Of a stretch of DNA of 64,000 nt, positions 11,335 through 63,397 are shown one piece after another (within the stretch, counting starts at the first letter, position 1; each line of letters starts with the position of its first letter). The DNA is from Streptantibioticus cattleyicolor NRRL 8057 = DSM 46488. GTDB lineage: Bacteria > Actinomycetota > Actinomycetes > Streptomycetales > Streptomycetaceae. The notes under the pieces were generated by a model. The model was given only the letters and a program-made list of their open reading frames with translations, was not told the DNA's origin and ran no database searches. A program made the translations under genes and the position numbers. The stretch is taken from contig NC_017586.1 in assembly GCF_000240165.1 (NCBI RefSeq), positions 1,736,001-1,800,000 on the forward strand, read 5' to 3'.

Positions 11335-11339
11335 CACTG

Positions 11340-11412
<73 letters not shown>

Positions 11413-15501: not shown

Positions 15502-15509
15502 CCGGACTG

Positions 15510-15582
<73 letters not shown>

Positions 15583-34503: not shown

Positions 34504-36129
34504 ATGGGCAGAAGATCCAGGACGGCCCCTGCCGCACGTCAGAAGAGCTACACCATAGAAACAGAGTGGACCTCAGCAGACCTCGCGCTGCTAGAGGATC
34601 TGCTAGCGGCTGAGGCCCTACTGCCAGAGGATGCCCCCCGCGCTCTCCTCTCTATACGTCTCTCAGTCCTCACCGAGGACACCACGTCCCCTGTCCGCCA
34701 AGAGCTTGACTTGCGGATCAAGGCCAGGGAGATGGGGTGCCGCGTCGTTGGCGTGGCAAGCGACCTCAACGTAAGCGCGACCAAGGTGCCACCGTGGAAG
34801 CGCAAGCAGCTCGGAGACTGGCTCAACAACCGCGCACCCGAGTTTGACGTCATCCTGTTTTGGAAGCTCGATCGCTTCGTGCGGCGGCTCTCCGACCTGT
34901 CCGCCATGATCGACTGGTGCTTGAAGTACGGGAAGAACCTCGTCTCCAAGCACGACCCCATCGACCTGAAGTCAACCGTCGGCAAGATCATGGTGACGAT
35001 CATTGGGGGCATCGCAGAGATCGAGGCCGCGAACACAAGTACCCGGGTGACAAGCCTGTGGGACTACACGAAGACTCAGAGCGACTGGCTTGTCGGGAAG
35101 CCGACGTACGGGTACAAGACAGCGGAGAAGGACGGGAAGGTTGTCCTTGTCTATGACGAGGACGCTTACAAGGCACTGCACTGGGCCAGACGCATGGCTC
35201 GTCGTGGCGTGTCCGCCTCTTACATGGTCCGAGTGATCAAGCGATCCAAGCTGATGGGCGAGGGCCTAACCACCACCACCCTGCTGCGCAGGTTGAGGAA
35301 CCCCGGGCTCATGGGCCTCCGCGTAGAGGTGAAGCAAGAGAAGGGTAAGCGCCGGTCCGTGCTGGTGCTCGGCACTGACGGTAAGCCGATCCGTGTTGCC
35401 CCCCCGATCTTCACGCCCGAGGAGTTTGACACCCTCCAGGCCGACCTTGACAAGCGGTCGAAGGACCAACCTCATCGCCAGCCTGGCGGCGCGACCAAGT
35501 TCTTGGGCGTGCTCATCTGCCACGACTGCAAGACACACATGACCAACCACACCTCGACCAACAGGATCGGCACGTACAGCTACCTGCGGTGTCAGGGCTG
35601 CAAGAGCGGAGGGTACGGGATCCCCAACGCCGAGATGGTCTACGGGCGGCTTGTCCTGGACGTGCTTGAAGCCATCGGGGACTTCCCCGTGCAAGTCCGC
35701 GAGTACGCCAAGGGTGCCGACGCCCGGAAGGAAGCCAAGCGTCTGGAGGAGTCGATCTCTCAGTACATGAAGGACCTGGAGCCAGGAGGCCGCTACACGA
35801 AGACCTCGTTCACGAGGGAACGCGCGCAAGCTACGTTGGACCGCCTCATCACGGAACTGGCCGCCATAGACCCGGCCACGACCCAGGACCGATGGGTCAA
35901 CGTCCACAACGGCAAGACGTTCCGCGAGCAGTGGGAGGAAGGAGGCATCGACGCCATGGCGGCCGACCTGTTCCGCGTCGGTATCCGGTGCGAGGTGACC
36001 AGGACCAAGGTCCCCAAGCAGCGCGCTCCGGAGGTGCACCTGCGGCTGCTCATACCCAAGGACGTGAGAGAACGCCTAGTAATAAAGGAAGACGACTTCG
36101 CCGGAGCCCTCGGGGGGCGTAGGCAGTGA
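34504..36129 (+). CDS. int: large serine integrase
   Basis: 541 residues from ATG at 34504; the upstream open frame belongs to the host gene and intergenic DNA. The resolvase catalytic domain is N-terminal: the nucleophile Ser is in L-L-S-I-R-L-S-V, with conserved D-R-F-V-R-R. A recombinase domain (Y-G-Y-K-T ... G-L-R-V-E) follows, then a zinc ribbon with C-H-D-C and C-Q-G-C, and a C-terminal coiled-coil region. Such enzymes catalyse attP x attB integration without host factors. Catalysis by a serine integrase requires a recombination directionality factor for excision, not identified here. No TAG codons. Confidence 0.95.
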   Translation: MGRRSRTAPAARQKSYTIETEWTSADLALLEDLLAAEALLPEDAPRALLSIRLSVLTEDTTSPVRQELDLRIKAREMGCRVVGVASDLNVSATKVPPWKRKQLGDWLNNRAPEFDVILFWKLDRFVRRLSDLSAMIDWCLKYGKNLVSKHDPIDLKSTVGKIMVTIIGGIAEIEAANTSTRVTSLWDYTKTQSDWLVGKPTYGYKTAEKDGKVVLVYDEDAYKALHWARRMARRGVSASYMVRVIKRSKLMGEGLTTTTLLRRLRNPGLMGLRVEVKQEKGKRRSVLVLGTDGKPIRVAPPIFTPEEFDTLQADLDKRSKDQPHRQPGGATKFLGVLICHDCKTHMTNHTSTNRIGTYSYLRCQGCKSGGYGIPNAEMVYGRLVLDVLEAIGDFPVQVREYAKGADARKEAKRLEESISQYMKDLEPGGRYTKTSFTRERAQATLDRLITELAAIDPATTQDRWVNVHNGKTFREQWEEGGIDAMAADLFRVGIRCEVTRTKVPKQRAPEVHLRLLIPKDVRERLVIKEDDFAGALGGRRQ

Positions 36130-42104: not shown

Positions 42105-42451
42105 GCGACCGCCTTCATGGCGCTTTCCCAGGCCAGCTCAGTAGACCCGTCCGGGTAACGGACGATGTAAGTGAAGTCGCCATCCCTATCAGGTTCACTG
42201 GCAACACCAACGATCTTCCCTTCGCAGCAGTACACCTCGACCTTCTGCTCGATCTGGTACTTCGGAGACAGAACACGCTCGAAAACTCCGCCTACGCCGA
42301 ACAGGGCACACTTCGCTATCTGAGGGGATGCCCACTCGTCACCGATGTAAGCGACGTATTCCGTGCCTCCGTGCTCGAACGGCTCAGCCACGGTGAAAAA
42401 GCTTAGCCCGCTCATTTTCGAACGGTACTCCCGCCCCTTCCACATACTCAT
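42101..42451 (-). CDS. phage protein of unknown function
   Basis: 116 residues from ATG at 42451, overlapping both neighbours by four bases. Mainly beta-strand-like with E-Y-V-A-Y-I-G-D-E-W-A-S and Y-I-V-R-Y-P-D-G-S-T-E-L-A-W. No motif that I recognise. Confidence 0.65.
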   Translation of the reverse strand: MSMWKGREYRSKMSGLSFFTVAEPFEHGGTEYVAYIGDEWASPQIAKCALFGVGGVFERVLSPKYQIEQKVEVYCCEGKIVGVASEPDRDGDFTYIVRYPDGSTELAWESAMKAVA

Positions 42452-43260
42452 GCCTTACCCCCCTTAGAAATGAACTTTCCGCGCGGTCCGCGCTTGATCT
42501 CGCCATACCGCTGGCCCTCGACCACGAACGATCCGTCGTCCTCGATCGGGATCGCGTGCGGAGTGGCGTTGTACTTGCCGACGTAGAACAGGCCGAAGCC
42601 CTTTTGCCAGTTGGCCGGCCCGTTCTTGAGATATCCGGCCTGGCGGACATCCATGAGATGTCCGACCTCGAACCCGTAGATGGTCCGGAGCTTTCCGTTA
42701 TGCCCGGTGGTGTGCGGAGCGATGGCCAGCCGGTGAGTGTGCCCCATGACGATGCTGATTCCGGCCTTGGCCGCCTTGAGCCGCGCAGTCGCGCCAGCCA
42801 CCTGGCTCATTCCCGGCGACTCGTGCCCGTGGACCGCCACCCATCCAGGCGCCAAGGGGTAATAGGGTTCGGCCTTCTTCACGTCGAAGGCCGGAAAGTC
42901 CAGCAGGGTCTCAAACCGGTAGAACGTGTCCTCGGCCGCCAGCGCCGGCGCCCGGCTGGCCAGATACTTCCGCGGCCGTTCGTCGTGGTTGCCTTCCAGC
43001 ACCTACACGGGGCCGGAGTAGACCTCACGAAGCGGAGCCAAGAAGTTCCTCTTGGTGTACTCGGAGTCCCGGATCACATTCCCCTCGAACTCCGCCCGGG
43101 TACCTGCGGACCACCGCGACGGAGCCGGGTAGTCCACCAGGTCGCCGATCTGGATCACTTCGTCCGGCTGGTAGTCACCGATGAACGCGAGGACGTTCCG
43201 CAGCGCCCGCTTGTCTTCGAATGGCGCTTGCACGTCGGATATGACAACTATTCGCTTCAC
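42448..43260 (-). CDS. calcineurin-like metallophosphoesterase with in-frame amber codon
   Basis: 271 codons from GTG at 43260 to TGA at 42448, with TAG at codon 86 (43003-43005). Before the TAG: I-S-D-V-Q-A-P-F-E-D (metal ligand) and G-D-L-V-D-Y. Immediately after it: V-L-E-G-N-H-D-E-R-P (the core G-N-H-D motif), then V-H-G-H-E-S and M-G-H-T-H-R. All metal-binding motifs of the superfamily are present only if the TAG is decoded; stopping there would remove the active site. A Tyr fits the strand before G-N-H-D. Likely role in phage nucleic-acid or nucleotide metabolism. Confidence 0.85.
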
Positions 43261-48820: not shown

Positions 48821-49147
48821 GTGCCAAGGGCGCGATCAATCTGCCTGACAAGCGGCTGCACGACCCCCACCGTGCGCGACGGACGATGCGCCGAACACCA
48901 GCTCCGCCGGAGCTGGGAACGGACCTCTGCGCGCAACCTCTCACGGCCTGCGGACTGGTCGAAGCGGAAGGCAAAAATCCTCGTCCGCGACCGCTTCCGC
49001 TGTCAGTTCTGCGGCTCTCCCCGGAAACTCGAAGTGGATCACATAATTCCGGTTTCCCGAGGTGGCTCGTGGGAGCCAGACAACCTGTGGACATTGTGTC
49101 AGTCGTGCCATAAACGCAAGTCACACCACGACCGACAGAGCCGCTGA
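48821..49147 (+). CDS. HNH endonuclease
   Basis: 108 residues from GTG at 48821. R-D-R-F-R-C-Q-F-C-G-S-P then V-D-H-I-I-P-V-S-R-G-G-S and N-L-W-T-L-C-Q-S-C-H-K-R-K form the zinc-stabilised HNH fold. HNH proteins beside terminase genes commonly assist cos cleavage or packaging in siphophages. A GAGGAGG ribosome site lies upstream. First protein gene of the rightward operon. TGA stop. Confidence 0.92.
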   Translation: MPRARSICLTSGCTTPTVRDGRCAEHQLRRSWERTSARNLSRPADWSKRKAKILVRDRFRCQFCGSPRKLEVDHIIPVSRGGSWEPDNLWTLCQSCHKRKSHHDRQSR

Positions 49148-49172: not shown

Positions 49173-49254
49173 GCGTTGGGCGCTGGGACGCACGGGGGCC
49201 TCTAAATCCCTCGCTCTGTACGGAGCTGGTCCGGTTCGATTCCGGGGCAACGCA
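49173..49254 (+). tRNA. predicted amber suppressor tRNA, anticodon CTA (probably tRNA-Tyr type)
   Basis: About 82 nt. Acceptor pairs 49173-49178 with 49248-49253 (GCGTTG / CAACGC), discriminator A49254. The anticodon loop is CTCTAAA (49200-49206) with anticodon CTA at 49202-49204 on a stem GGGG / CCCT. A long variable arm GCTC-TGTACG-GAGC marks class II, and the T arm is TCCGG-TTCGATT-CCGGG. Class II plus G1-C72, A73 and A37-A38 fits bacterial tRNA-Tyr (normally GTA), one base from CTA; Leu is the main alternative. Odd points: G7-G66 and C31-U39 mismatches and a short D arm. No CCA encoded. Confidence 0.65.
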
Positions 49255-49347: not shown

Positions 49348-49418
49348 GTGTCCGTAGTTCAGCGGCCGAGAACTCCTCCCTTCAGGAGGTAACGCCGGTT
49401 CGAATCCGGCCGGACACA
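49348..49418 (+). tRNA. putative tRNA-Glu(TTC)
   Basis: Acceptor GTGTCCG / CGGACAC is perfect, D arm GTTC / GAAC, T arm GCCGG-TTCGAAT-CCGGC, discriminator A. The anticodon arm CCTC-CCTTCAG-GAGG gives anticodon TTC but has C at position 33 instead of U, and CCTCC / GGAGG could close a five-base loop. So it may be a phage tRNA-Glu with an altered loop or a decaying gene. The gap 49,255-49,347 contains small hairpins but no gene. Confidence 0.65.
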
Positions 49419-49472
49419 CCGCCACACCTAGTTGTGGATTCATTCATTCACCCTTCCCCTGGAGGCCCACCC

Positions 49473-49652
49473 ATGACTGCCGACCGCTGTTCCCGCCGAT
49501 GCGACGAGGGGCCCTAGGCCGACTCCGGCTCGGTGCCGGCTCCCCGCCCGCCCCGGGCGCAGCAGCGGCGTGACTGGCACCAGGACGCGTTGTTCGAGCT
49601 GGAGGAGCTGGCCGACCTGTACGGGATCGACCTGGAGCGGGTGAGGCTGTGA
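49473..49652 (+). CDS. small phage protein with in-frame amber codon
   Basis: ATG at 49473 after a GGAGG site; TAG at codon 15 (49515-49517); TGA at 49650-49652. 59 residues if the TAG is read. N-terminal M-T-A-D-R-C-S-R-R-C, then after the TAG A-D-S-G-S-V-P-A-P-R and a helical acidic end (L-F-E-L-E-E-L-A-D-L-Y-G-I-D-L). The stop overlaps the terminase small-subunit start, a coupled arrangement that supports translation through the TAG. Function unknown. Confidence 0.65.
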
Positions 49653-50080
49653 CCAGAGGACCCCGCCCGAAGCCCAACGCGGTCCGGCGCAACGCCCATC
49701 CCCACGCGCAGGAACTCGCCGCGGAGGCTCGTGAGGGCCGGCCCCTGCCGAAGGCGCTCGGGATCCAGACCAGCGGCGCACGCCGGTTCTGGCGGACGTG
49801 GGCCCGTGCACCGCAGACGGCCACATGGGTTGAGACCGACTGGGCTGAGCTGGAGATCACGGCGAAGCTGGTTGATGCCCTGTACATGGGCGATCTGAAG
49901 TTGGCGCCCGAGATCCGGCAGCGGGTAGCGAAGTGGGGCGCAACGGTTGAGGACCGTGCACGGCTCCGGATGTCCCTCAAGGATGAGGACCAGGACCAGG
50001 ATGACGCTGGGCCGGAGTCCGCGGCGCCGGCCGCCTCCGACATGGACGAGGAGCTGTACCGGTTGCTCAACGGACCCTAA
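49649..50080 (+). CDS. terS: terminase small subunit
   Basis: 143 residues from GTG at 49649, overlapping the preceding stop. N-terminal G-P-R-P-K-P-N-A-V-R-R-N is the common basic start of actinophage small terminases, followed by a helical DNA-binding/oligomerisation region (W-A-E-L-E-I-T-A-K-L-V-D-A-L) and an acidic tail. Recognises phage DNA for packaging. Assignment rests on position and overall layout. No TAG codons; TAA stop. Confidence 0.75.
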   Translation: MTRGPRPKPNAVRRNAHPHAQELAAEAREGRPLPKALGIQTSGARRFWRTWARAPQTATWVETDWAELEITAKLVDALYMGDLKLAPEIRQRVAKWGATVEDRARLRMSLKDEDQDQDDAGPESAAPAASDMDEELYRLLNGP

Positions 50081-50115: not shown

Positions 50116-51681
50116 ATGCAGACAGGCAACCTGCCCGATGGGGTTCCGTCCCCGCGGGAGTCCCTGGGTTACCAGGTGATCCGCTGGGCACAGCGGTAGA
50201 TCGTCCACCCCGACGGCGAGCGCGCGGGCGAGCCCTGGCAGTTCACCCCCGAACAACTCAAGTTCGTGCTGTGGTTCTACGCCATCAATCCCGATGGCAC
50301 CTGGCGCTACAGCGCTGGCACCCTGCGACGGGCGAAGGGCTGGGGCAAGACCCCGTTGCTCGCCGCCTTGGCCATTGTCGAGTTCATCGGCCCCTGCCGC
50401 TTCGACCGCTTCGACGCCTTCGGCCTGCCGGTCGCCAAGCGCGTTCCGCTGCCCACGGTGCAGATCGGTGCCACCGCGCTCGACCAAACGGACCAGACAC
50501 TTGAGATGATCCGAGGGATGCTCTCGGAGTCTCCGGCCGAGAAAGAGTACGGGCTGGAGATCGGCAAGTCCGTGATCCAGTTCAAGTCTGGCAAGCCGGG
50601 GTCGATCCGGCCGAAGGCGACCGCTGGCCGCACCAATGAGGGCAACAGGCCGACGTTCGCCCTGCTTGATGAAGTACACCACTGGGTTGGGAGCAACGGC
50701 GGCCCCGACTTCTACCAGGTCATCAAGCGCAACGTAGAAAAGACGGCCTCCGCTGGCTCTCGCTGGGTGACCACGACCAACGCCTAGAACCCGAATGAAG
50801 ATTCGGTCGCTCAGCAGATCCACGAGTCCGACATGGTTCGCCAGGGCTTCTGGCTGTACGACTGCCTTGAAGGCAACATCCAGCCGGACGAGCTGCGCGA
50901 CGAAGCCAAGGTCCGCCAGGCGCTCACCGAGGCGTACGGTGACGCGACGTGGGCCGACATCGACGGCCTGACGCGCACCATCCTGCACGACCGCACGACG
51001 CCTGATTCGACGTACCTGCGCTTCTTCTTCAACGCCATCGCGGAGTCTTCCGACGGCTGGATGGTCCGCGCGGAGTGGCTGGCCTGTTACGACGACCAGG
51101 ACCCCATCAAGCCGGGCGATCAAATAGCCGTGGGCTTCGATGGCTCGATCCGCGGAGACGCCACAGGGCTCGTGGGATGCAGGCTCCGGGACGGAAAACT
51201 CTTCGTCTTGGGGATCTGGGAAAACCCTCGGGACCCCAATAACCCTGACTGGGAAGTTGACGTCCTGGCGGTCGAGGCCGCAGTGCACCGAGCCTTCAAA
51301 ACGTATCGCGTCCAGTGGTTCTACGGTGACCCGCCGTACTGGCAGGAGAACCTAGGCCGCTGGGCTCTCGAATACGGTGACGACTACGTATACGAATTCT
51401 GGACCAATAAGCCTACGCGCATGGTCCAGGCCGTTGAGAGGTTCCGCACCGCTTCCATGGTCCAAGACCTGAAGCACGACGGAGATGAAGACCTCACCCG
51501 GCACATTCTCAATGCGGTGACGCGTGAAGTCCCTCAGGGACTCCTGATCACCAAAGACTCTCCCCGTTCAAAGAAGAAGATCGACCTCGCGGTTTGTGCA
51601 GTCCTGGCTTTTGAGGCGCGAGCCGACGCAATCGCGGACGGGCGCCTCACGATCAAACGAAAAAGAGTTGTCGGGTTCTGA
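50116..51681 (+). CDS. terL: terminase large subunit with two in-frame amber codons
   Basis: 522 codons from ATG at 50116 to TGA at 51679. TAG at codon 28 (50197-50199, R-W-A-Q-R[TAG]I-V-H-P-D-G) and codon 224 (50785-50787, T-T-T-N-A[TAG]N-P-N-E-D). Walker A-like R-A-K-G-W-G-K-T, Walker B F-A-L-L-D-E-V-H-H, and a C-terminal nuclease beginning A-V-G-F-D-G-S-I-R. Frame and homology continue uninterrupted across both TAGs, and the residue at the second is usually aromatic in relatives. Cleaves concatemers and drives DNA into the prohead. Confidence 0.93.
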
Positions 51682-51708: not shown

Positions 51709-53169
51709 ATGGACGGCGGTAGCCTCGTCAGCACGACGCCGGCCGAGATGCCGGTAGGTATCGCGCCGAGCACACCTGAGCAGTGGGTTGACTAGCTGTA
51801 TTCGAAGCTGGCCCGCCGCAAGGCGACCTACCAGATTTAGGGCCAGTATTACGACGGCCAGCATCAGCGCCTCATGTTCTCGCAGGCACGGCACTACAAC
51901 CACTTCCACCAGACCTTCGAGAGCTGGCGAGACAACTTCTGCGGCTTGATCATCGACTCGGTGAACGAACGCCTCACCGTGGACGGTTTCCGGATGACTG
52001 ACGAGCCGGATGCCGACAAGGATGCTCGGGACATCTGGCAGCGCAACTACATGGATGCCGAACACAACGCGGCTCAGCTCGACGCGATGATTCAGGGCGC
52101 CTCTTACGCGGTTGTGTGGTCGGACGACGACGACCAACCGACCATCACCATGGAGAGCGCTGAGAACGTTGTCGTCCAGTACAAACCAGGGTCCAGGCGT
52201 GAACTCGCTGCCGCGGCGAAGTTCTACTAGGACGACTGGGGCCGGGAATGGGTGAACCTCTGGCTTCCTGACGCTGTGTGGTCGTTCGCCAAAGGCTCTT
52301 TGGCGTGGGGAGAGGGGCAAGAAGGCCCTAATCCACTGGGGGTTGTTCCAGTGGTTCCGATCAGCAACCGGTCTCGGCTGCTGCGTGACCCGGTGAGTGA
52401 TCTCCATGTCGTCATCCCGATCCAGGACGCCATCAACAAGACCGTTGCTGACGCTCTGGTGGCGTCGGAGTATGCGGCTTGGCCTCAGCGCTACGTCACC
52501 GGCCTGGAAATCGTGGAGGACGAGCACGGCAATCCGGTTGAGCCGTTCAAGGTCGCCGTGGACAAGCTGCTCCAGGCCGAGGACCCGCAAGCCAAGTTCG
52601 GTCAGTTCGAGGCCGCCGACCTCGGCAACTACGTGACGCTGGTGGAGATGCTGGTCCAGCACATGGCCAGCATTTCCCGGATCCCGTTCCATTACTTCCT
52701 CAATGGTGGCGTCGTCCCGTCCGGTGAGTCGATTACCGCTGCGGAGGCAGGTCTCATAGCCAAGACCCGTGAGCGCATGCTGCACTTCGGGGAGGCATGG
52801 GAAGAGGTGATGCGCCTTTGCTTCAAGGTGCTGGACGATCCCCGCTCAAAGGCGTATTCGGCAGAGACGATCTGGAAGGATCCGGAGAACCGCACGGAAG
52901 CACAGCACATGGACGCTCTGCTCAAGCTCCAGATGATCGGCGTTCCGAGGGACCAGTTGCTTTCCGATGCCGGGTACACGCCTCAGCAGATTGCGCGGTT
53001 CCAGGACATGAGGGAAGCCGATGCCAAGGCCGCAATGGAGTTGGCGAAGAAGTACCCGATGCCTGTCCCGGAACCGCCGGCCGGGCCCGTCGGCATGAGC
53101 AAGGCGGCCCAGCAGACAGCCGTGAAGCGCCCGCAGGGCAACAGCGGCAACCAGGCCCGCAAGTCGTGA
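51709..53169 (+). CDS. portal protein (SPP1 gp6-like) with three in-frame amber codons
   Basis: 487 codons from ATG at 51709 to TGA at 53167. TAG at 51793-51795 (Q-W-V-D[TAG]L-Y-S-K-L), 51838-51840 (T-Y-Q-I[TAG]G-Q-Y-Y-D-G) and 52228-52230 (A-A-K-F-Y[TAG]D-D-W-G-R). The Y-Y-D-G-Q-H segment, the central stem region and the C-terminal helical part with S-G-E-S-I-T-A-A-E-A-G-L match actinophage portal proteins. Forms the dodecameric DNA entry ring at the capsid vertex. Read-through is needed at all three positions for any functional product. Confidence 0.92.
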
Positions 53170-53796: not shown

Positions 53797-54879
53797 ATGG
53801 CAGGCTTTATCACTCAGCCCGGAACCGGCTACCAGGCCAATTCCGGCAACGTTTTCATCCCCGAAATCTGGACCGCTGAACTCCTCCAGGATCTTGAGGA
53901 AGAGCTGGTTCTGGCTTCGGCTCGGTTCACCAACCGGCAGTAGGAGGGCGAGTTCCGCCGGGAAGGTGATGTCGTCCACATCCCGCACTTCGTCAATGAC
54001 CAGGTGCAGGACAAGGGGCTTGTCCCGGCGTACGGCACGATCGGTTCGCCCGACCACGCGTCCCTCCAGTACATCGATATGCGAGTCGCCAAGGGCTCAT
54101 CTTTCCATATCGAAGTGGACGCGCTCCACCAGCTCCAGACCAGGGTCGGTATCGACCTGATGAGCAACCTCATTGCTCAGCGGGCTCGCGCCATCGCCAT
54201 CAAGCTGGATGAGCTGGTCGCCAAGACCCTGCTCGCCGCAGTGAGCGGCAAGGATCTGAACGGCAATGCCGATGCGAATGCGGCGGTTTCCGGTCTGACT
54301 GCTCTCCATGGCCAGATTGACGAGATCACCGACGCGCCGACTGGCGACAACGTCACCCGGGTTGGGGGCAAGGAACGGCTGAGCGTCTATCACTACGTGG
54401 TGGCGATGCTGGAGAACCTGGATATCAAGTCGGCGCCGGCCGACCGGTTCCTGTTCATTTCCCCGCGCATGCGGTCACTGCTGCTGCGCGACCCGAACTT
54501 CATCCAGGCGCAGGTGTACGGCGGTTCGCCGGTCATCCCGAACGGCGCTTCGGCGATCGGCACCATTCTCGGTGTCCCGGTCACTGTGGCCAACGCGCTG
54601 GGTTCCCACACCCGGCCGAACAACCCGCTCATCAAGAAGGGCAACCAGGCGTTCCAGCCGGTTGACTTGTACATGGGTGCCACCGCGGCTACGTCGGTCG
54701 TTATTCCGTTCGCGCAGATGGAGGCGTACAAGCCGCAGCAGTCTTTCACCGACGCGATCAAGTCGCGCGTGATCTACGACGCGAAGGTCATCCGGCCGGA
54801 ACAGCTCGTCGTGGCGCGCAACGTCGAGGCCGCCATTACCGCGCACAACGGCGCCAGCACGACCCCGGCCACGACCTGA
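53797..54879 (+). CDS. major capsid protein with in-frame amber codon
   Basis: 361 codons from ATG at 53797 to TGA at 54877. TAG at codon 49 (53941-53943): F-T-N-R-Q[TAG]E-G-E-F-R-R-E-G-D-V-V. Many P22-coat-like actinophage capsids carry N-R-x-Y-E-G-E at this place, which argues for Tyr. The rest (A-V-A-S-type core, M-E-A-Y-K-P-Q-Q-S-F, A-A-I-T-A-H-N-G at the end) is intact. Being the most abundant virion protein, it would need very efficient decoding of the TAG. Confidence 0.92.
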
Positions 54880-55505
54880 TGTTCGTGACCGTAGACGATG
54901 TGGTCGCCCGCCTGGGGCGGCCCGTCGCCGACGACGCCGAGCGGGCGCGGATCCTGGCGTACATCGAGGACGCCACCGCGCTGGTGCTCGACTGGTGCCA
55001 GACCGACTTCCAGCAGCACCAGGCCGAGACGTTCGAGCTGCTGGTGGAGGGCGGGCAGGTGGACATCCCGCCCCGGTACCTGCCGGGGCTGTCGGTCGCC
55101 TCGGTCGCTCTCGACGGGCGCCCGCTCAGCGTCGACGAGTGGCGGGTGCTGGGGCGGACGCTGTACCTGCGCCGTGGTCCGGTCACGGGGCTGGTCACTC
55201 TCATCGCGTCGTGGGGGCGCCCGTCCGTTCCGCCGGTCATCCGGCAGGTGATCGCCTCCGAGGTGATCCGGTGGCTTGCGGTCTCTCCGGGGACCGTGCT
55301 GGAGAAGACCGGTGAGCTTGAGGTGCAGTACGCGCCGGCCGCGAATTTCGCGGGTCTCTCCCTGGCGGCCAAGGACTCCTTGAAGCGGTACCGGAAGCGC
55401 GCGACGACCATCGCCTTGCACCGGACCCGGACCGTGCGCCCTGGAGGTGAAGAAGTCACGTGGCCCTGTTCAACGACCACATAGCCGTCTGGCGGGCTCC
55501 CCTGA
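54879..55505 (+). CDS. head-tail connector (adaptor) protein
   Basis: Start ATG at 54879, overlapping the capsid stop. 201 codons reach TAG at 55482-55484; if TAG is decoded, the frame continues P-S-G-G-L-P and ends at TGA 55503-55505. This is the only annotated prophage gene whose standard-code stop is TAG with no clear homologous continuation, and a backup TGA follows at once. V-D-D-V-V-A-R-L-G-R-P and A-L-V-L-D-W-C fit gp6/gp15-type adaptors that bind the portal. Predicted cytoplasmic structural protein. Confidence 0.82.
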
Positions 55506-55786
55506 TCTCCGATCCGTACGGGCAGCACCGCGACTGGTCGAAGGCCGCGTTGGTGTGGTCCGGGCTGGGCGCGGCGCTGCCGTACCGGCGCACCTACCGG
55601 CCGGAGCCGACGCGTGAGACCAGCCGGAGCCGGATCACGGTCTACCTACCTGGGGCTGTCCCGTACGACGCTGCGGACCGGCTGCTGATCAACGGCTTGT
55701 GGTGGGTCTCCGACGGCGAGAGCTGGTCATGGAAGTTGGGTGCCCGGCGGTACACACAGATCGACGCGAAGCGGGTGAGTAAGTAA
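55460..55786 (+). CDS. head-tail stopper/closure protein
   Basis: 108 residues from GTG at 55460, overlapping the adaptor gene. Beta-rich: V-W-R-A-P-L-I-S-D-P-Y-G, Y-R-R-T-Y-R-P-E-P-T and W-W-V-S-D-G-E-S-W-S-W. Position and size fit the stopper ring that closes the filled head. TAA stop; no TAG codons. Confidence 0.75.
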   Translation: MALFNDHIAVWRAPLISDPYGQHRDWSKAALVWSGLGAALPYRRTYRPEPTRETSRSRITVYLPGAVPYDAADRLLINGLWWVSDGESWSWKLGARRYTQIDAKRVSK

Positions 55787-56169
55787 TGGCGAGGCGGAAG
55801 CGGTACACCAAGTCCGCGCGGGACGGAATCCTCTTCGAAACGGATCTCGGGTTCCTGCTCTACGAGATCCAGCACAGCTCACCGTGGAAGGAGATGGCGG
55901 CCTTCAAGGCAGGCATGCTGGCCGGGAAGATCATCAAGACGGCGCCTCGCGGCCCTCACCAGGTCACCGACGCATACTCGATCAAGCAGAACATCCACGC
56001 CAACGTGAAGAAGACAAGCGCCGGTTGGGTCGGGTACGTCACCATCGAGGAGAACCCGCAGGCGCGGCACGCGATGCTCCAGGAGAAGGGCTGGACGGAC
56101 CGCGCCGGCCACCGGCACGCCGGGCGCTTCTACATCAAGGCAGTCCTCGACGCGGAGCGTGCGGAGTGA
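55786..56169 (+). CDS. HK97 gp10-like tail/neck protein
   Basis: 127 residues from ATG at 55786, overlapping the previous stop. Charged N-terminus (R-R-K-R-Y-T-K-S-A-R) and A-P-R-G-P-H-Q-V-T-D-A-Y-S, then H-A-M-L-Q-E-K-G-W-T-D-R-A-G-H-R-H-A-G-R, the common pattern of gp10-like proteins. Acts between head and tail. TGA stop. Confidence 0.75.
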   Translation: MARRKRYTKSARDGILFETDLGFLLYEIQHSSPWKEMAAFKAGMLAGKIIKTAPRGPHQVTDAYSIKQNIHANVKKTSAGWVGYVTIEENPQARHAMLQEKGWTDRAGHRHAGRFYIKAVLDAERAE

Positions 56170-56552
56170 GAGTTGACCCGGTGCCTCTCGTGGTCGAGTA
56201 CCTGAAGAGCTGCCCGGGAATCCCGGCCGGCGCCCCCACAGGGACGCTGGTGGGCCGGGAAGTCGGCACCACGAGCCTGTACGTCCTCCACAGCGGTGGT
56301 CACCGCCTGGTACGCGACCGGATGGACCGCGCTGACATCTGGTAGGACGCCTACCACCAGGACCGGGCCTCGGCCGCGGACCTGGCCTACCTCACCCGCG
56401 AACTCCTGCTGGAGGACCTGCCGGGCAAGGTACTCAAAGGCGTCCAGGTACTCGACGTGCTGGAACTGAACTCCCCCAAGTACCTGCCTGACTCCGCGTC
56501 CGTTGAGGACGTTTACGGCGGCGAAGTCGCCATTTTCTATGTTGAGACCTGA
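56166..56552 (+). CDS. tail terminator protein with in-frame amber codon
   Basis: 129 codons from GTG at 56166 to TGA at 56550. TAG at codon 60 (56343-56345): A-D-I-W[TAG]D-A-Y-H-Q-D. After the TAG the frame continues with L-A-Y-L-T-R-E-L-L-L-E-D-L-P-G and Y-G-G-E-V-A-I-F-Y-V-E-T, typical of the C-terminal half of tail terminators. The ring stops tail-tube growth and joins the tail to the head. Neither half alone has the expected length. Confidence 0.85.
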
Positions 56553-56570
56553 GACCCCGAGGATTTATTC

Positions 56571-57203
56571 ATGGCTAATGATTCCGGAAAGATCCGGTTC
56601 GCGCCGAACGGCGCTCTCTATGTTGCTCCGGCTCCCGATGGCACCCCGAACGGTACGGTACTGCCGACCACGGTCGGCGACGGCGGTACGACCGGCCCGG
56701 CCGGATAGAAGGCACTCGGTTAGGTCACCGAGTCCGGCGTGACCATCACGCCGCAGGTGCAGACCGATCCGGTAAACGTCTGGCAGTCCGCCGTACCGGT
56801 TCTCTACAACGTCAAGGCGGCTTCCTTCTCGATCAAGGCCACGCTGACCGAAGTTTCGAAGATCACCACTGAGTTGTTTTTCGGGGCTTCCTGGGTGAAG
56901 CAGGGCGCAGGTGTGTGGAAGCTGAACTTGGCGAGTGTTCCGACGCTCACTCAGATCAGCCTGGTCGTGGACTGGGGCGATGCTGCCAAGCATTTCCGAT
57001 GCGTGATTCCGCGCGCGATGATTTCCGACCGAGGGGCGATCACCCTTCAGCGCACCACGGCGCAGGAGTTCGAGCTGACCTTTGAAGCGCTTGACTTCAA
57101 CGGCACGTTGGGCTTCGTTCTGACCGATGACGCCAACGTGGACGACGGCACTCCGTCCGGCTCTGGCTCGGGCTCTGGCGGCACCACGCCGCCGACCACC
57201 TGA
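56571..57203 (+). CDS. major tail (tube) protein with two in-frame amber codons
   Basis: 211 codons from ATG at 56571 to TGA at 57201. TAG at 56706-56708 and 56721-56723, five codons apart: G-P-A-G[TAG]K-A-L-G[TAG]V-T-E-S-G-V-T-I. Tail tube proteins often have G-Y-V-S-E-D-G-V at this site, so both fit Tyr. Then V-W-Q-S-A-V-P-V and a Ser/Gly/Thr-rich C-terminus. Polymerises into the tail tube. Standard-code translation would yield only a 45-residue fragment. Confidence 0.9.
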
Positions 57204-57251
57204 GCAGCCTCACTTCCCCCCCCCTGTCCCATCCTCTTCATGGAGTTTTGC

Positions 57252-57500
57252 ATGTCCGCTAAGACCGCTTCCGTTGAGGCCGAGGCCACCGGCACGCCCA
57301 CCGTGATTGAGCACGGAGGCCGTGAATACACGATTCCCGCTCCCAAGGACGTTCCCCTTGAGGTCGTCTGGGCTCAGGACGACACCGATATCGTCCGCCT
57401 GGTGCTCGGCGAGGACCAGTGGTCCCGGTACCTGGCGACCCGACCGACGCTCGGCGATTTCCAGGCCCTCGCGGAGAAGATCAACACCGTGGGAAACTGA
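57252..57500 (+). CDS. tail assembly chaperone, short form (gpG-like)
   Basis: 82 residues from ATG at 57252 (an in-frame ATG at 57240 is less likely). Acidic alpha-helical protein with P-K-D-V-P-L-E-V-V-W-A and Q-A-L-A-E-K-I-N-T-V-G-N ending at TGA 57498. Located just before the tape measure gene, where siphophages encode G and G-T chaperones. The stop follows directly after a slippery heptamer. Confidence 0.85.
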   Translation: MSAKTASVEAEATGTPTVIEHGGREYTIPAPKDVPLEVVWAQDDTDIVRLVLGEDQWSRYLATRPTLGDFQALAEKINTVGN

Positions 57501-57895
57501 CCCCTGCCGTCCATGCCCTACGCGAGCACCCCGAGGAACTTGAAGCGGATCTGATCGAGTTCTTCGGGGTCGATCTCATCGACCTGTGGCACGGACGGCT
57601 TTCCCTCCGGAGGATCAGCGTCCTCGTGAACGCACTGTGCCGCCGGCCGGGCCGGTCGGCGCTCGCTGCCGTGATGGATCCGGCTGCCGAGTGGAGCACA
57701 TCTGATTACCTGCTGGCCCGTGTCTCCGATGCCCTGGAACTGAACACCTATCTTTACCTCAAGGTGCATTCGGAGGACGGCAGCAATCTGACAGCGCCGG
57801 AGCCGATTCCGCGGCCGGGCGAGGAGAAACCGACGGAGGAGTTCGAGTACGCCTCCGGGGAGGAGGTGGCGCACTTCCTCACGCACATGCTGTAA
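57252..57895 (+). CDS. tail assembly chaperone, frameshifted long form (gpG-T-like)
   Basis: Made by -1 frameshifting at GGGAAAC (57491-57497). After the shift the frame reads L-T-P-A-V-H-A-L-R-E-H-P-E-E-L and continues to TAA at 57893-57895. The T part has Y-L-L-A-R-V-S-D-A-L-E-L-N-T-Y and an acidic tail ending F-L-T-H-M-L. Long and short forms together chaperone the tape measure protein. The second frame has no good separate start, which supports frameshifting. Confidence 0.82.
57491..57497 (+). other. -1 ribosomal frameshift site GGGAAAC
   Basis: Canonical X-XXY-YYZ heptamer, read in zero frame as GTG-GGA-AAC followed at once by TGA. It is positioned exactly where the chaperone short form ends and the -1 frame opens. 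Confidence 0.85.
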
Positions 57896-57904
57896 GGAGG
57901 CATT

Positions 57905-60900
57905 ATGGCCGTGACTGGTGGCATCCGGATCGGGAATGCGTTCATCGAGATCACACCGCAGATGGACGATGCGACCCTCACTCGGCAGCTCGCCGAGGTT
58001 GAGAAGCAGATCAAGGCGTTCTACACCCGTGCTTCCGATGTCACCAAGGCGTACTCACGGCTTCAGACTCAGCTCGAAGCGGTGGTCACCGCCCGGTAGG
58101 GCGAGGAGCTGAAGGGGCGCCTGGCCCTCACCGCCGACTCCATCAAGGCCCGGAAGTCGCTGGCTGCCTCCGAGTCTGCCGTCATGCTCCAGGCGCTCAG
58201 GCAGGTCTCCGCTGCTGCGGAGAAGGCTGAGGCGGCGAAGACGGCGGCGGCCGACAAGGCAACGCGCCAGCGCGAGCGCATCGCGCTCAACGCGCGGGAC
58301 CTGGAGGTGCGCTACGGGCGCCAGGTCGCCGACGCCTACCTCGCCCGGCTGGACCAGATGCGCGCGGCCGGCGAGAAGCTGACGCTCACCCGGATCAACG
58401 AGACGAAGCGTTGGGCGGAGCTGGAGGTTGCCGAGTACCGCCGTACAGTCGCGGAGGCCCGCACCGCGGCGGCCGAGAAGGCGAAGGCGGCTCGTGCGGC
58501 TCAGGCGGAGTACCGGGCCATGGCTGCCCAGGTGCAGGAGACCACCCTGCGGCGGATGGAACTGGAGCGTACCGCTACTGTGCGCGCGCTCCAGGGTGAG
58601 CGGGACCGGCAGACAGCCATCCAGCGAACCATGGCCGAGGAGCTGAGCCGTACCCGGGGCACTCTGGCGATGCTGTCGACGGCCAGCACCACGGCGGCGT
58701 CCCGGTGGAAGACGGCCGGTGAGTCCATCACGAAGTACGGCACCACCGCCACCGAGCTGGGCCACACCCTCATGACCAGTGTGGTGGCTCCGCTGGCTGC
58801 TGCGGGCGCCGGCCTGACCGACTGGGGCCTGAAAGCGGCTGATGTCTTCCAGAACACACAGACCTCGCTGCGGAACATGGGCATGGCGCTGAGGGACGCC
58901 GACGCCCTGATGAACAACCTCACCCGGTACGGTCTGCAAACCCCGTACGCGGTGGGCGACATGCTGACGTACGGCACGCGGATCGCCCGTGCGGCCGGCG
59001 CGCACAACAGTGACTTCAACTCCGCGGATCCGCGCAGGCAGGCCCGGGGTTCCACTGCTGTGTCCACGGAGGCACAGCACATCGTGCAGATGATCGGTGA
59101 CCTCGCGGCACGCGGTGGTATCACCGACTCGGCGATGGTCCAGCGCGGTTACTACGCCATCGAAAAGCTGATGGACGCCGACCGCGTTTCGCTTCGGGAC
59201 ACCAAGCAGCTTGAGTACGCCATCAACATGCCGGTTCAGGATCTCGCCCAGCTTCTCGGTTTCAGGGATTCCCAGTACACCCAACGGCAGGTCGACGGTT
59301 TCAAAAAGGTCAACCCGGGATTCCACGCCAAGGCCGGGGACATCTATCCCGCCTCCGCCATGATGATGGAGGTCATGGCCAACGCCAAGGACACCGGCGG
59401 CGTGCGGGGCCAGGACCTCGTGGGAAACCTCTTGGAGTTCTGGGAAGGCAAGAAGGCGCTCCCCGGCGGGAAGCCGGACAAGACGATCCGGGGCGCCGCC
59501 GAACGGCTGGGCACCGCGACATTCAGCAGCCGCATTTCCAACATGAAGGAGACGTGGCAGCAGCAACTTCGCGCGATGTTCCAGACCTAGGACCCGAAGA
59601 CCGGGCAGCTTCGGTACACGGGGCTGGGCCAGGCCATCATGGGCCGCCAGGTCCGGGACCGGAAGACCGGCCAGACCACCTGGCAAGGCGGCTTGCTCAA
59701 CCAGGTCAACGGCATCGCCTCGGACCTCATGGGCAAGGGCGGCAAGGGTGCCGTCCCTCAGCTCATGGCCGGGTTTGTCGAGGGAATGACGACCCTCGTC
59801 GGCTGGCTGAAGAAGGTGGCCAGTTTCCTGAACGGCCATCCGCAGTTGGTGTCCGGCCTGAAGGAGGCGGCGAAGCTCGTCGGGGTCATCGCTCCGTTGA
59901 CGATTGCTTTCGGCACCACGGCGAAGATATTCGGCAAGCTGATCAAGCTCAGCACGCCGCTTGTCTCGACGCTCGTCGGCGGCGGAAAGATCATCGGTCA
60001 ATTCATGGCCGGCGGCTTGTCCATGCTGAACGGCACCGGATTCCGGAACGGCTACGTGTCGCAGCGCGGCCTGTTCAACGGCGGGGACACCCGCAGTGTT
60101 GCCCGCCGGGCCGTCGATAAGGTCACGGGGAACAATTCCCAGGAAGAGCGCCTGCGCATCAACATCGCTCAGTACAAAGAGCAGATGGAGAAGGCAAAGG
60201 CCGAAGCCCAGGAACTCCGCGACAAGATCCGGGAGCTGAACCGCCAAGACCTGAACCACCTCGCCCGACAGGCCGCAGGCAGTGACAGCAGTGTGCAGGC
60301 AGCCGCCCGCCGGGCCGCTGAGGCGACGGAGGCCGCGAAGGTCGCGGTAGGCAACCTCGACCGGGCCAAGCTCGCCGGACTGCGAGGCCAGTTCACCTCC
60401 AGCGCCACGACAACGGGCGAGCTGGACACCGCAGTGAAGGCAGCGACCAACCGGGTCAACAAGCTCAACGGTCGCAGTCTGGACTCCCTGAAGGGGCAGT
60501 TCTCGCACGTCAAGAACGAGACGGACGAGACGATCAAGAAGGCGTCCAGCCTGACCGGTCGCGTCTCCTCGCTCAACGAGCGCAAGCTGAGTGCTGTCAC
60601 GGACCAGGTGCAGCACCTCGGCCGCGCCCTGGCCGACGCCGGGGTCAAGGCAGAGGCTCTGAACCTGGCCCTCGACCACATCGGGAAGAAGGCGCCGGGC
60701 AAGGGCGACGGACCTGCGGTGCACAAGCCCAACAAGTACGCCACGGGCGGTGTCGTCCCCGGCTAGGCGCCGGGCGTGGACATCGTGCCGGCGATCCTCT
60801 CCCCCGGTGAGGCGATCCTGCGCCCGGAGGTCGCTCGCACACTCGGCCATGAACGAATCAATGCGTGGAACACGCTCGCCGTGCGGGGCCAGCTCCGCCG

Positions 60901-63397
60901 GTTCGCCGGCGGCGGCATCGTCGAGCGCCTGGGCCTGGGCAAGCTCATCGACCTGTCGAAGAGCTTCGCCGTCGGCGGGGATGCGCTGGCGGCCCTGGCC
61001 ACCATGAGCATGGACAGCTCCTCCCGGGCACTGGGCGGCACCACGCAGGACGGTGTTCTGGCGACCGGTACGGGCGCTGCGCGCACGGTCGGCGCCAACG
61101 TCGCCGAGCAGTTCAGCGGCATCTGGCACTTCCTGTCCCGGGACTCGTGGACGTTCCTGCGCCGGATACCCACTGCGGTGGGTCAGGCGGTCGGCATCGT
61201 CGGCGGCGCCCTGGGCCCGCAGGCAGGCCACTACCTGTGGGACGACGTGTGGAAGGGGCAGGGGAACATCTTCCAGCGCGGCGGGAAGTTCCTCGGGGAC
61301 CTGTTCTCCCCGTCGAACCTGCTCCACATGGTGGAGGAGGTGTTCAAGGGGCTGTGGGACTCCGCCAAGGGCATCTGGGCTGTCGGCAGGGGCTTGGTCA
61401 CTGACCCGCTGGGGACCATCCGGGATGCCGCCAATGGTGTCTGGGACCTGGCCAAGTCGCAGTACACCGGCCTGGTGGACATGGTGAAGGCAACCAAGCA
61501 GATCTTCACCAGCCCGATGGACTACGCGAGCCGTGTGGTCCACGAGGTGACCTCCACGGCAAAGGACGCGCTGCCCAACACCAAGGGACTGTGGGACTTC
61601 GGCAGCGGGGACCAGCTCGACGCCACGCAGCCGGACATGTCCAACGCGCTGGGGAGCATGTTCAGCCTGCCGGGGGTCGGCGACGCCGTGACCCGATGGG
61701 CGCCACTGGCCCGTGCTGCTCTGATGCAGCTCGGTCTGTCCGAGACGTAGGTACCGCTCGTCCTGCACCGCATCCAGGTCGAGTCCGGCGGCAACCCGAA
61801 CGCCATCAATTTGTGGGACAGCAACGCCCTGGCCGGCATGCCGAGTCAGGGGCTCATGCAGACGATCCCGCCCACGTTCGACGCCTACGCCGGTCCGTAC
61901 CGCAGTCTCGGGATCACCAACCCTCTGGCCAGCATCTATGCCGGTCTCAACTACGCGATCCACCGCTAGGGCGCCGGCTGGGTGCAGGCCCTCGCCGGCA
62001 CCGCCGGGTACGCCTCAGGCACCTCGGGGGCACGGCCCGGCTGGGCCTGGGTCGGCGAGGAAGGCCCCGAACTCGTCCGGTTCGGCGGCGGGGAGACGGT
62101 GCTGAACCACCGGGACTCGATGCGGGCCGCAACCCGTGGCCTGCCCGGGTACGCCTCGGGCACGAAGTCGGGCGTGGCCGTCGACGCGGAGAAGGGCGCG
62201 TCCTCGCTGAGTGCTGCGGTGAAGCGGCTCTACGAGATCATCACCAAGGCGTTCACGTCCGGGCGGATCGGCCAGGGCACGGAGAATTCGCTGAACCGCT
62301 GGCTCGACGGTGAGAACAAGGCACTGTCGAACCTGGTGAAGCAGCGGACCGACCTGGCGGGGAAGCTGAAAGCGGCTCAGGCCGCGTTGAAGAAGGTCAA
62401 GGACGACGAGGCGAAAATGGCCTCGGGGATCTCCGACAAGGCATCGTCCCTGCGCGACCTGTCATCGGTTTTCAATTCCGATGGCGTGTCGGTGACTGCT
62501 GGTCTGTCCGGGCTCCACGAGCGCCTGGCCGCCATCAAGAAGTTCCAGGCCAACCTGAACACCTTGGTGAAGCGGGGTTTCTCGTCGGCAATCATCGAGA
62601 ACATCGCGGAGGCCGGTCCGGAACAGGGCGGGGCCATGGCTCAGGAACTCCTGAACGCCACCGGCGCCCAGATCAAGGACTACAACAAGACGTACGCAGC
62701 CATCGGCACGGCGTCCGATTCCCTCGGGAACTCGGTAGCCAAGTCCTACTACGCCACTGGCGAGAAGGCTGCTCAGCGTCTTGTCGATGGTCTGATGTCC
62801 AAGGACAAGGTATTGGTCAAGAAGATCGAGTCCCTTGCGGATTCGATCGTCCGGACGCTGAAGAGGACGCTGAATTTCGGCTCCACCACACCGGTGACCT
62901 CCGGTCTGGGTGCTCTGCTCACCTGGCTCACCGGCGAGTCGCAGAGCGTCGGGCGCAAGCCCAAGCCGAAGCCCAAGCCCAAGCCCAAGCCGACGCCGCA
63001 GGTCAAGCGCACGGTCACGACCACGACGGGATACGACTCCAAGGGGCGGTCCGTCACCACGGTGACGACGACCATCACGGATCCGTGGGCCGGTACGACC
63101 ACCACCATCACGGAGCGGACCGTCGACGGGCGGACGACCACCACCCGATCCGTCCGCAGGACGACCAAGGGCTACGCCACCGGCACTCTTTCCGCCTCGC
63201 CGGGTATGGCGCTGGTCGGTGAACGCGGCCCGGAACTCGTGGACTTCCGCGGAGGCGAGCGCGTCTACACCGCACGGCAGACGGCCGACCTGATGGGGCC
63301 TCGCTACGAGATCCACATTCATGAAGCGAAGGCGGAGAACACCACGCAGGCCGTTCTCCGCGCGCTGAAGTACGCGGAGGTGATGTCAGGAATGTAA
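57905..63397 (+). CDS. tape measure protein with five in-frame amber codons
   Basis: 1831 codons from ATG at 57905 to TAA at 63395. TAGs at 58097, 59588, 60764, 61748 and 61967. Contexts: V-V-T-A-R[TAG]G-E-E, M-F-Q-T[TAG]D-P-K-T, V-V-P-G[TAG]A-P-G-V-D, L-S-E-T[TAG]V-P-L-V, A-I-H-R[TAG]G-A-G-W. The third and fifth match G-Y-A-P-G and H-R-Y-G patterns of relatives. Parts: coiled-coil N-terminus, hydrophobic middle, an SLT-type lytic transglycosylase domain ([17 protein letters not shown]), and a Lys-Pro repeat linker near 62,955-62,995. Sets tail length and probably opens the cell wall. Confidence 0.93.

Follow-up and report, generated by a model that had tools for sequence, protein, structure and literature searches.

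The recoding of lytic genes in phages was reportedly described by Borges in 2022. In Escherichia coli, the suppressor supF (su3+) is a tRNA-Tyr in which a laboratory-selected change of G34 to C puts tyrosine at UAG, and in the Mesodinium nuclear code (NCBI code 29) TAG and TAA both stand for tyrosine. In most described amber-recoded phages, by contrast, UAG is decoded as glutamine (code 15), a precedent published in the parts covered of PMC9523058, PMC10607447 and PMC11210395. Within the portions of the literature covered here, recoded phages use TAG for Gln or TGA for Trp, and Tyr appears only as the predicted isotype of roughly 1% of suppressor tRNAs (1.1% of 180 gut-phage tRNA-Sup, assigned by an isotype model; PMC10879173). 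A literature search on tyrosine or actinophage recoding, with subscription papers mostly outside its scope, returned no phage in which codon alignment gives TAG as Tyr. Here we analysed a window (the whole stretch of DNA examined, 64,000 nucleotides) from Streptantibioticus cattleyicolor and, judging from the sequence, conclude that the late genes of a prophage in this Streptomycetaceae host very probably have UAG decoded as tyrosine by the phage's own tRNA-Tyr(CUA).

In-frame TAG codons in the late genes

Fourteen in-frame TAG codons with homologue columns were found in otherwise intact late genes, namely those for the terminase large subunit (TerL), portal, capsid, tail terminator, tube and tape measure. 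The protein genes referred to in this section are:

34753..36129, forward strand: serine integrase (Pfam Resolvase, E 1e-17)
42448..43260, reverse strand: metallophosphoesterase (Pfam Metallophos, E 4e-11)
50116..51681, forward strand: terminase large subunit, 2 in-frame TAG (phrog_9, E 4e-69 with TAG read as Y)
51709..53169, forward strand: portal protein, 3 in-frame TAG (phrog_104, E 4e-126)
53797..54879, forward strand: major capsid protein, 1 in-frame TAG (phrog_267, E 1e-26)
54879..55484, forward strand: head-tail adaptor, ending at TAG 55482 (phrog_442)
56166..56552, forward strand: tail terminator, 1 in-frame TAG (phrog_123, E 3e-7)
56571..57203, forward strand: major tail (tube) protein, 2 in-frame TAG (phrog_117, E 1e-27)
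57905..63397, forward strand: tape measure protein, 5 in-frame TAG (phrog_167, E 1e-52)

Each TAG-bearing late gene forms a single frame that closes with TGA or TAA and aligns collinearly with homologues that are intact. The late-gene block comprises 6,074 codons and holds 16 TAG, counting that at 55482 and a further one at 67298, past the end of the window, in an 88-aa ORF; its tyrosine-type codons are TAC (156), TAT (15) and TAG (16). After exclusion of 55482 and of two small ORFs of doubtful status, TAG made up 15 of 186 tyrosine-type codons in the late genes versus 1 of 264 in the early genes (p 1e-5). The late-gene TAGs stand in a suppressible context, with a purine directly 3' of the codon at 14 of 15 late sites compared to 101 of 171 TAC or TAT codons (p 0.006). 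Since TAA is the terminator of 7 of the 20 late genes, it is not read as Tyr. A TAG was also found at 43003..43005 on the reverse strand, in the metallophosphoesterase gene, which is of early type and whose homologues mostly have Gly at this position.

The TAG at 55482 falls where relatives end the adaptor gene, within the overlap with the next gene, and is probably a retained stop; because it coincides with the stop of the relatives, TAG has not been cleanly reassigned. Among host gene calls, 49 of 360 close with TAG, an ordinary rate that indicates the standard code, and host-wide recoding through loss of RF1 was rejected on this ground. Of 41 genomes searched for prfA, 39 passed the cut-off, the misses being the host and one assembly that is 81% complete; since the usual neighbourhood of prfA reads N in the host sequence (a prmC search was used), the absence of prfA there is not evidence. 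The retained stop at 55482 and the continued termination at TAG in host genes both speak for partial readthrough, whereby TAG often acts as a stop and truncated and full-length forms are both made, whereas a capsid of 48 residues or a tape measure of 64 would very probably not be functional. We judge partial readthrough to be a possible but rather unlikely account, and one that is compatible with tyrosine decoding by the phage's own tRNA.

Homologue residues at the TAG columns

To assign a residue to the codon, the homologues were counted column by column at the TAG columns with at least three homologues (n = 14). A second set of homologues (set 2), which overlaps set 1 in part, is given where marked:

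50197..50199, forward strand, TerL: tyrosine column (Y 23, F 1 of 24)
50785..50787, forward strand, TerL: tyrosine column (Y 19, F 7 of 26)
51793..51795, forward strand, portal: tryptophan/tyrosine column (W 22, Y 7 of 29; set 2 Y 22, W 12, F 6 of 40)
51838..51840, forward strand, portal: tyrosine column (Y 24, F 4, C 1 of 29)
52228..52230, forward strand, portal: variable (Y 15 of 30; set 2 T 10, M 9, Y 6, Q 4 and others, of 40)
53941..53943, forward strand, capsid: tyrosine column (Y 58 of 58)
56343..56345, forward strand, tail terminator: tyrosine column (Y 29 of 29)
56706..56708, forward strand, tube: tyrosine column (Y 15, F 8 of 23)
56721..56723, forward strand, tube: tyrosine column (Y 23 of 23)
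58097..58099, forward strand, tape measure: tyrosine column (Y 11 of 17 letters)
59588..59590, forward strand, tape measure: variable (P 9, F 7 and E 3 among 19 letters; the nearest relatives, L270 and L295, have F)
60764..60766, forward strand, tape measure: tyrosine column (Y 20 of 20)
61748..61750, forward strand, tape measure: not a tyrosine column (N 8, Y 1 of 14)
61967..61969, forward strand, tape measure: tyrosine column (Y 19 of 19)

Tyrosine was the most frequent residue at 11 of the 14 columns. When the columns were pooled, it accounted for 264 of 360 residues in set 1, with no Gln, Leu or Ser, and for 253 of 367 in set 2, with 5 Gln and 3 Leu. A column-averaged likelihood, in which every column had one vote, placed Tyr ahead of Phe by 19.9, Trp by 21.4, Leu by 40.8 and Gln by 52.2 log units.

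The preliminary description had proposed that amber means tyrosine and not glutamine, and these columns, together with the family of the tRNA described below, support that proposal. The tyrosines that it assigned to motifs of the capsid, tube and tape measure were right at 53941, 56706, 56721, 60764 and 61967, where the TAGs that it quoted are in frame with the quoted flanking residues, and TAC is, as it stated, the usual Tyr codon here. The alignment it had suggested as a check bore the idea out at the Tyr-led columns, with neither Gln nor Leu in set 1, and did not do so at the three columns that lack a Tyr lead in that set, one of them Trp-led (51793) and two not Tyr (59588 and 61748).

These columns bear directly on a reading of TAG as tryptophan or phenylalanine, for which the Trp majority at 51793 and the Phe minorities at several columns can be cited. 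However, L270 and L295, the nearest TerL relatives, have Tyr at column 51793, Trp and Phe each lie about 20 log units under Tyr, and the CTA tRNA belongs to the Tyr family, so we consider either residue very unlikely.

The CTA tRNA and its relatives

The candidate decoder lies at the head of the late genes, in a slot made up of the following features:

48821..49147, forward strand: HNH endonuclease, opening the tRNA slot (phrog_589, E 2e-22)
49173..49254, forward strand: predicted amber suppressor, a tRNA-Tyr of class II that has the anticodon CTA, G1-C72 and A73 and encodes no CCA (cmsearch, cloverleaf segments)
49348..49420, forward strand: tRNA-Glu(TTC), beside the suppressor (ARAGORN; Rfam 57 bits)
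49649..50080, forward strand: terminase small subunit (TerS), without TAG (blastn to the TerS genes of Ponzi, Success and Ibantik; PHROGs gives it another name, phrog_226)

The tRNA at 49173-49254 was missed by ARAGORN and Rfam, an instance of how standard tRNA finders can miss unusual suppressor tRNAs, and was the only CTA tRNA in a relaxed scan of both strands of 60 kb. When it was searched by cmsearch with a model of seven phage tRNA-Tyr(GTA) built without it, it scored 62.2 bits (E 7.4e-16), while the host's own tRNA-Tyr scored 31.8; on a Leu model it reached 24.1 bits, and a Ser model gave no match. By its sequence and predicted structure, then, this tRNA is of the phage tRNA-Tyr family and neither Leu nor Ser, which agrees with the earlier suggestion that a class II tRNA with A73 fits tRNA-Tyr. 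It keeps A73, G1-C72, U35 and A36, which belong to the bacterial tRNA-Tyr identity set, and the host carries tyrS. Counting against a tyrosine suppressor are mismatches at 7-66 and 31-39 and a free energy of folding that does not stand out (z -0.44), minimum-free-energy folding having been uninformative. Since it has the anticodon CTA and not the GTA that is a trait of the family, we file it as a derived suppressor of the compact actinophage tRNA-Tyr and not as an ordinary member.

The gene order HNH-tRNA-TerS is common to the relatives, and the related phage L288 has a tRNA-Tyr(GTA) between HNH and TerS that begins with the same six bases (GCGTTG). A first pattern for the compact tRNA-Tyr family was too strict and gave no match. 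Among viral contigs, the CTA form of the compact tRNA-Tyr was found in one, a copy of the prophage, and the GTA form in 66; across 394 family genomes, the sole match to a class II CTA pattern was the tRNA at 49173-49254. The TAG change is seen only in one phage and its identical copy (L002). Twenty-two viral contigs that matched a CTA pattern derived from ordinary bacterial tRNA-Tyr stems were set aside, being mostly class I suppressors of a different sort and not relatives of the tRNA at 49173-49254.

A class II suppressor of the Leu or Ser kind would also read TAG, and tRNA-Leu likewise has A73 and a long variable arm, with the Leu model yielding a measurable score. This reading is contradicted by the far higher score on the Tyr model, by the lack of a Ser match, by the fact that set 1, when pooled, contains neither residue (set 2 has 3 Leu among 367) and by the likelihood deficit of Leu, and we hold it to be highly improbable. 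Just as improbable, in our estimation, is a decaying prophage whose TAGs are ordinary nonsense mutations, an idea that draws on their confinement to one lineage and on the TAG at the Gly column of the early gene. Decay would give TGA and TAA too, whereas the late-gene interruptions are all TAG (TGA 0, TAA 0) in frames that end with TGA or TAA and stay collinear with intact homologues, which argues against random decay, as do the conserved Tyr at most TAG columns, the presence of a matching CTA tRNA-Tyr and the suppressible context. Glutamine decoding is the least credible of all, since, despite its published precedent and a codon (CAG) one base from TAG, Gln is nearly absent from the columns and 52.2 log units below Tyr in likelihood, and the CTA tRNA is class II while the host tRNA-Gln is class I.

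A possible late-gene lock and comparison with known systems

Overall, the TAG columns and the ancestry of the tRNA agree on tyrosine, and what preceded the change can be seen in the ordinary relatives. The simplest history is that the CTA tRNA-Tyr arose by a G34-to-C change of the anticodon, which would make it a natural supF-like suppressor, with CUA in place of GUA. The phage-borne tRNA sits between the HNH gene and the terminase, at the start of the rightward-running late block, and would be made together with the late genes; it would be charged by the host TyrRS, as the kept A73, G1-C72, U35 and A36 suggest, and would compete with host RF1 at UAG. In the lysogen, little suppressor would be present and UAG would end the structural proteins early, whereas induction would lead to full-length structural proteins. 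We tentatively suggest, as an idea that may well prove wrong, that this temperate actinophage uses its private code (TAG = Tyr) as a lock, in which RF1 truncates the products in the lysogen and the late suppressor unlocks them. If this lock exists, the GTA sister tRNA in the same slot of a relative makes both the before- and the after-state of a code change visible. The small number of TAGs and their near confinement to late genes look like an early stage of recoding, and because bacteria of this host group are in routine culture, a lysogen could serve to test the long-standing question of the purpose of phage recoding.

The crAss-like and Lak-type phages of code 15 are, in the parts of the published accounts covered, similar in having in-frame TAG in structural genes, a phage CTA tRNA and a standard-coded host. 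In contrast to them, the residue here is tyrosine, Gln, which marks code 15, makes up only 0 of 360 and 5 of 367 residues at the TAG columns, the decoder is a class II tRNA-Tyr, the carrier is a GC-rich actinobacterial prophage, and the window holds only 14 supported TAGs, most of them early in the late block. The gut-phage tRNA-Sup of Tyr isotype likewise include CTA suppressors assigned to Tyr, and in the part covered of that source (PMC10879173) the assignment is an isotype prediction only, whereas here columns and tRNA agree and a GTA sister occupies the slot of a relative. The compact actinophage tRNA-Tyr(GTA) of Streptomyces phages WRightOn, Stella and Manuel and Mycobacterium phages LinStu and Sebata share with the CTA tRNA a D region of 15-16 nt and A73, and the Streptomyces members also share the 7-66 mismatch; the CTA tRNA differs from them in its anticodon, an 18-nt variable region and a C-U at 31-39. 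With NCBI code 29 the prophage has TAG as Tyr in common, but TAA stays a stop here. The likeness to supF lies in a tRNA-Tyr with G34 changed to C, and the difference is that the suppressor here is a phage gene accompanied by matching codons.

Residues at the in-frame amber codons

The preliminary description had proposed that amber is read as tyrosine, not glutamine, citing TAGs in the capsid, tail tube, and tape measure genes. The proteins, translated with X at each TAG, were aligned by tblastn to the Streptomyces phages Success, Ibantik, and Ponzi and to loci gathered for their similar capsids; 14 TAG columns had at least three homologues. Tyr was the most frequent residue in 11 of the 14 columns, the remaining three being led by Trp (51793, portal), Pro (59588, tape measure), and Asn (61748, tape measure). 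Pooled over all rows, which were not made distinct and do not include five gap rows, 264 of the 360 residues were Tyr, 33 were Phe, and 22 were Trp. Gln, Leu, and Ser did not occur among the 360, in support of the proposal. In a likelihood trained on variation in other columns of the same proteins, with each TAG column counted as one vote, Tyr ranked top, with deficits in log units of 19.9 for Phe, 21.4 for Trp, 31.4 for His, 40.8 for Leu, and 52.2 for Gln. A second set of 47 loci, obtained by TerL search and overlapping the first in part, yielded Tyr in 253 of 367 residues over 12 columns (four gaps set aside), together with Phe (39), Trp (12), Gln (5), and Leu (3). The two loci nearest by TerL (L270 and L295) have Tyr in 9 of 11 columns, the exceptions being 59588 (Phe) and 52228 (portal; Leu or Thr). 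Past the window end, TAG 67298 was matched by one Phe and one Tyr.

A compact tRNA with the CTA anticodon

ARAGORN and Rfam detected tRNA-Glu alone in the tRNA slot, and a search for CTA tRNAs under relaxed settings, covering 60 kb on both strands, returned a single match. The tRNA features are as follows:

11339-11412, minus strand: tRNA-Ala(GGC), host part of the window
15509-15582, minus strand: tRNA-Ala(GGC), host part of the window, scoring equally with the preceding one in every search
49173-49254, plus strand: candidate class II suppressor tRNA, anticodon CTA
49348-49420: tRNA-Glu(TTC)

Blastn of the candidate against phage records ranked the WRightOn (Streptomyces phage) tRNA-Tyr first, though weakly (E 0.3). 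A short D region of 15-16 nt around CTGGGA is common to the tRNA-Tyr of WRightOn, Stella, JPandJE, Manuel, RosePharie, LinStu, Sebata, FlowerPower, and Immanuel3, and a 7-66 mismatch is common to the Streptomyces members of this compact group; arm-by-arm comparison found the short D region, the mismatch, and A73 in the candidate. With the anticodon masked, the candidate gave its highest scores with these nine compact tRNA-Tyr; two other phage tRNA-Tyr and every host Leu, Ser, and Tyr tRNA compared scored lower. With the anticodon unmasked, a covariance model of seven compact tRNA-Tyr, built without the candidate, gave it 62.2 bits (E 7.4e-16), while a Leu model from six host tRNAs gave 24.1 bits and a Ser model from seven tRNAs gave no match, in agreement with the earlier view that this class II, A73 molecule fits tRNA-Tyr. 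Applied to host tRNAs, the Tyr model scored tRNA-Tyr at 31.8 and the best Leu at 25.8. Since a host TyrRS is present and the candidate retains the Tyr identity set, charging with Tyr by the host enzyme is the best inference.

Prophage layout and placement of TAG

Within this 8.1-Mb genome, whose family relatives carry Streptomyces-type phages, the prophage begins at ~34.7 kb of the window. Named matches to Streptomyces genomes and phages suggest that the family is Streptomycetaceae. Its left part encodes a serine integrase, DNA polymerase A, ribonucleotide reductase, and helicase-type genes, and its rightward late block comprises HNH endonuclease, tRNAs, terminase, portal, scaffold, capsid, connectors, tail tube, and tape measure, running past the window end into more tail genes and an endolysin. 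TerL, portal, capsid, tail terminator, tube, and tape measure become single frames once TAG is sense. The IMG/VR contig L002 is the same phage (100% identity across 20,204 bases) and is not an independent case. For the small terminase (49649-50080), the PHROGs label (phrog_226, minor tail protein) is at odds with relatives' annotation.

The placement of TAG in the late genes is not random. TAG accounts for 16 of 6,074 codons in the late block; as a share of Tyr-type codons, it makes up 15 of 186 in late genes versus 1 of 264 elsewhere, excluding 55482 and two small doubtful TAG-bearing ORFs (38532, 81971). A purine follows 14 of 15 late TAGs, compared with 101 of 171 TAC or TAT codons (p 0.006), and a purine after TAG favours suppression. 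Prophage genes end in TGA or TAA in 59 of 59 cases, as forced by calling genes with TAG as sense; in Success, Ibantik, and Ponzi, TAG closes 22 of 112 gene calls. More telling is that only one TAG, at 55482 in the head-tail adaptor gene, lies near a gene end where relatives stop, within the overlap with the stopper gene, and suppression at 55482-55484 would lengthen the adaptor by Tyr plus six residues. Called genes seldom end in TAG in L012, L014, L006, L020, and L023, relatives with capsids ~79-87% identical, although the candidate tRNA was absent from those examined.

TAG closes 49 of 360 host gene calls, so the host seems still to terminate there, and the candidate tRNA would have to compete with release factor 1. 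A search of the host genome for the RF1 gene (prfA) gave nothing above the cut-off, but the region where it normally lies falls in a masked run of N, so this absence carries no weight. Since the tRNA heads the rightward late block, it may be produced along with the late genes, and with a late-only tRNA the structural proteins would stay off during lysogeny. The TAG at 43003-43005 (minus strand), which splits an early-type metallophosphoesterase gene, is a poor fit to both Tyr and the late-only idea: five of six homologues examined have Gly and the other Thr. Tyr may be tolerated at this position, or the codon may be a genuine nonsense mutation.

Possible origin of the proposed recoding and relation to known systems

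In the related phage L288, the slot between the HNH gene and small terminase, the same as that of the candidate, holds an ordinary tRNA-Tyr(GTA) of 79.8 bits. Both tRNAs start GCGTTG and are identical in 60 of 83 aligned columns; the candidate has C31/U39 where the L288 tRNA has a G-C pair. In L288, as in the nearest relatives, the codon at most Tyr columns is TAC or TAT. The compact tRNA carries CTA in one viral contig (the copy of this phage) and GTA in 66, and a class II CTA pattern matched 1 of 394 family genomes, the source genome. The simplest history drawn from these comparisons would be a G34-to-C change in the anticodon of a phage tRNA-Tyr, then changes of TAC/TAT to TAG at a few Tyr sites. 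Late proteins of the second set had no internal TAG apart from TerL of L314 and L315, whose internal stops (at 181 and 78, respectively) are perhaps inserts or split genes. In Ponzi, the annotation splits TerL into two genes. The viral contigs L131, L134/L139, and L137/L141, some of them class II or GC-rich cases, have CTA tRNAs of different kinds, and their frames lengthen when TAG is read through; these are possible further recoded phages.

Phages with TAG read as Gln and TGA as Trp are described in PMC11210395, PMC9523058, PMC10607447, and PMC10746230. Searches among open-access papers gave no report of TAG as Tyr in a phage demonstrated by codon columns; the new element relative to the TAG-Gln and TGA-Trp phages is a predicted Tyr reading of TAG that codon columns support. 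In PMC10879173, 1.1% of a set of 180 suppressor tRNAs from gut phages have a predicted Tyr isotype; Tyr is there an isotype prediction only, whereas in the present phage the residues at the codons and the tRNA both point to Tyr.
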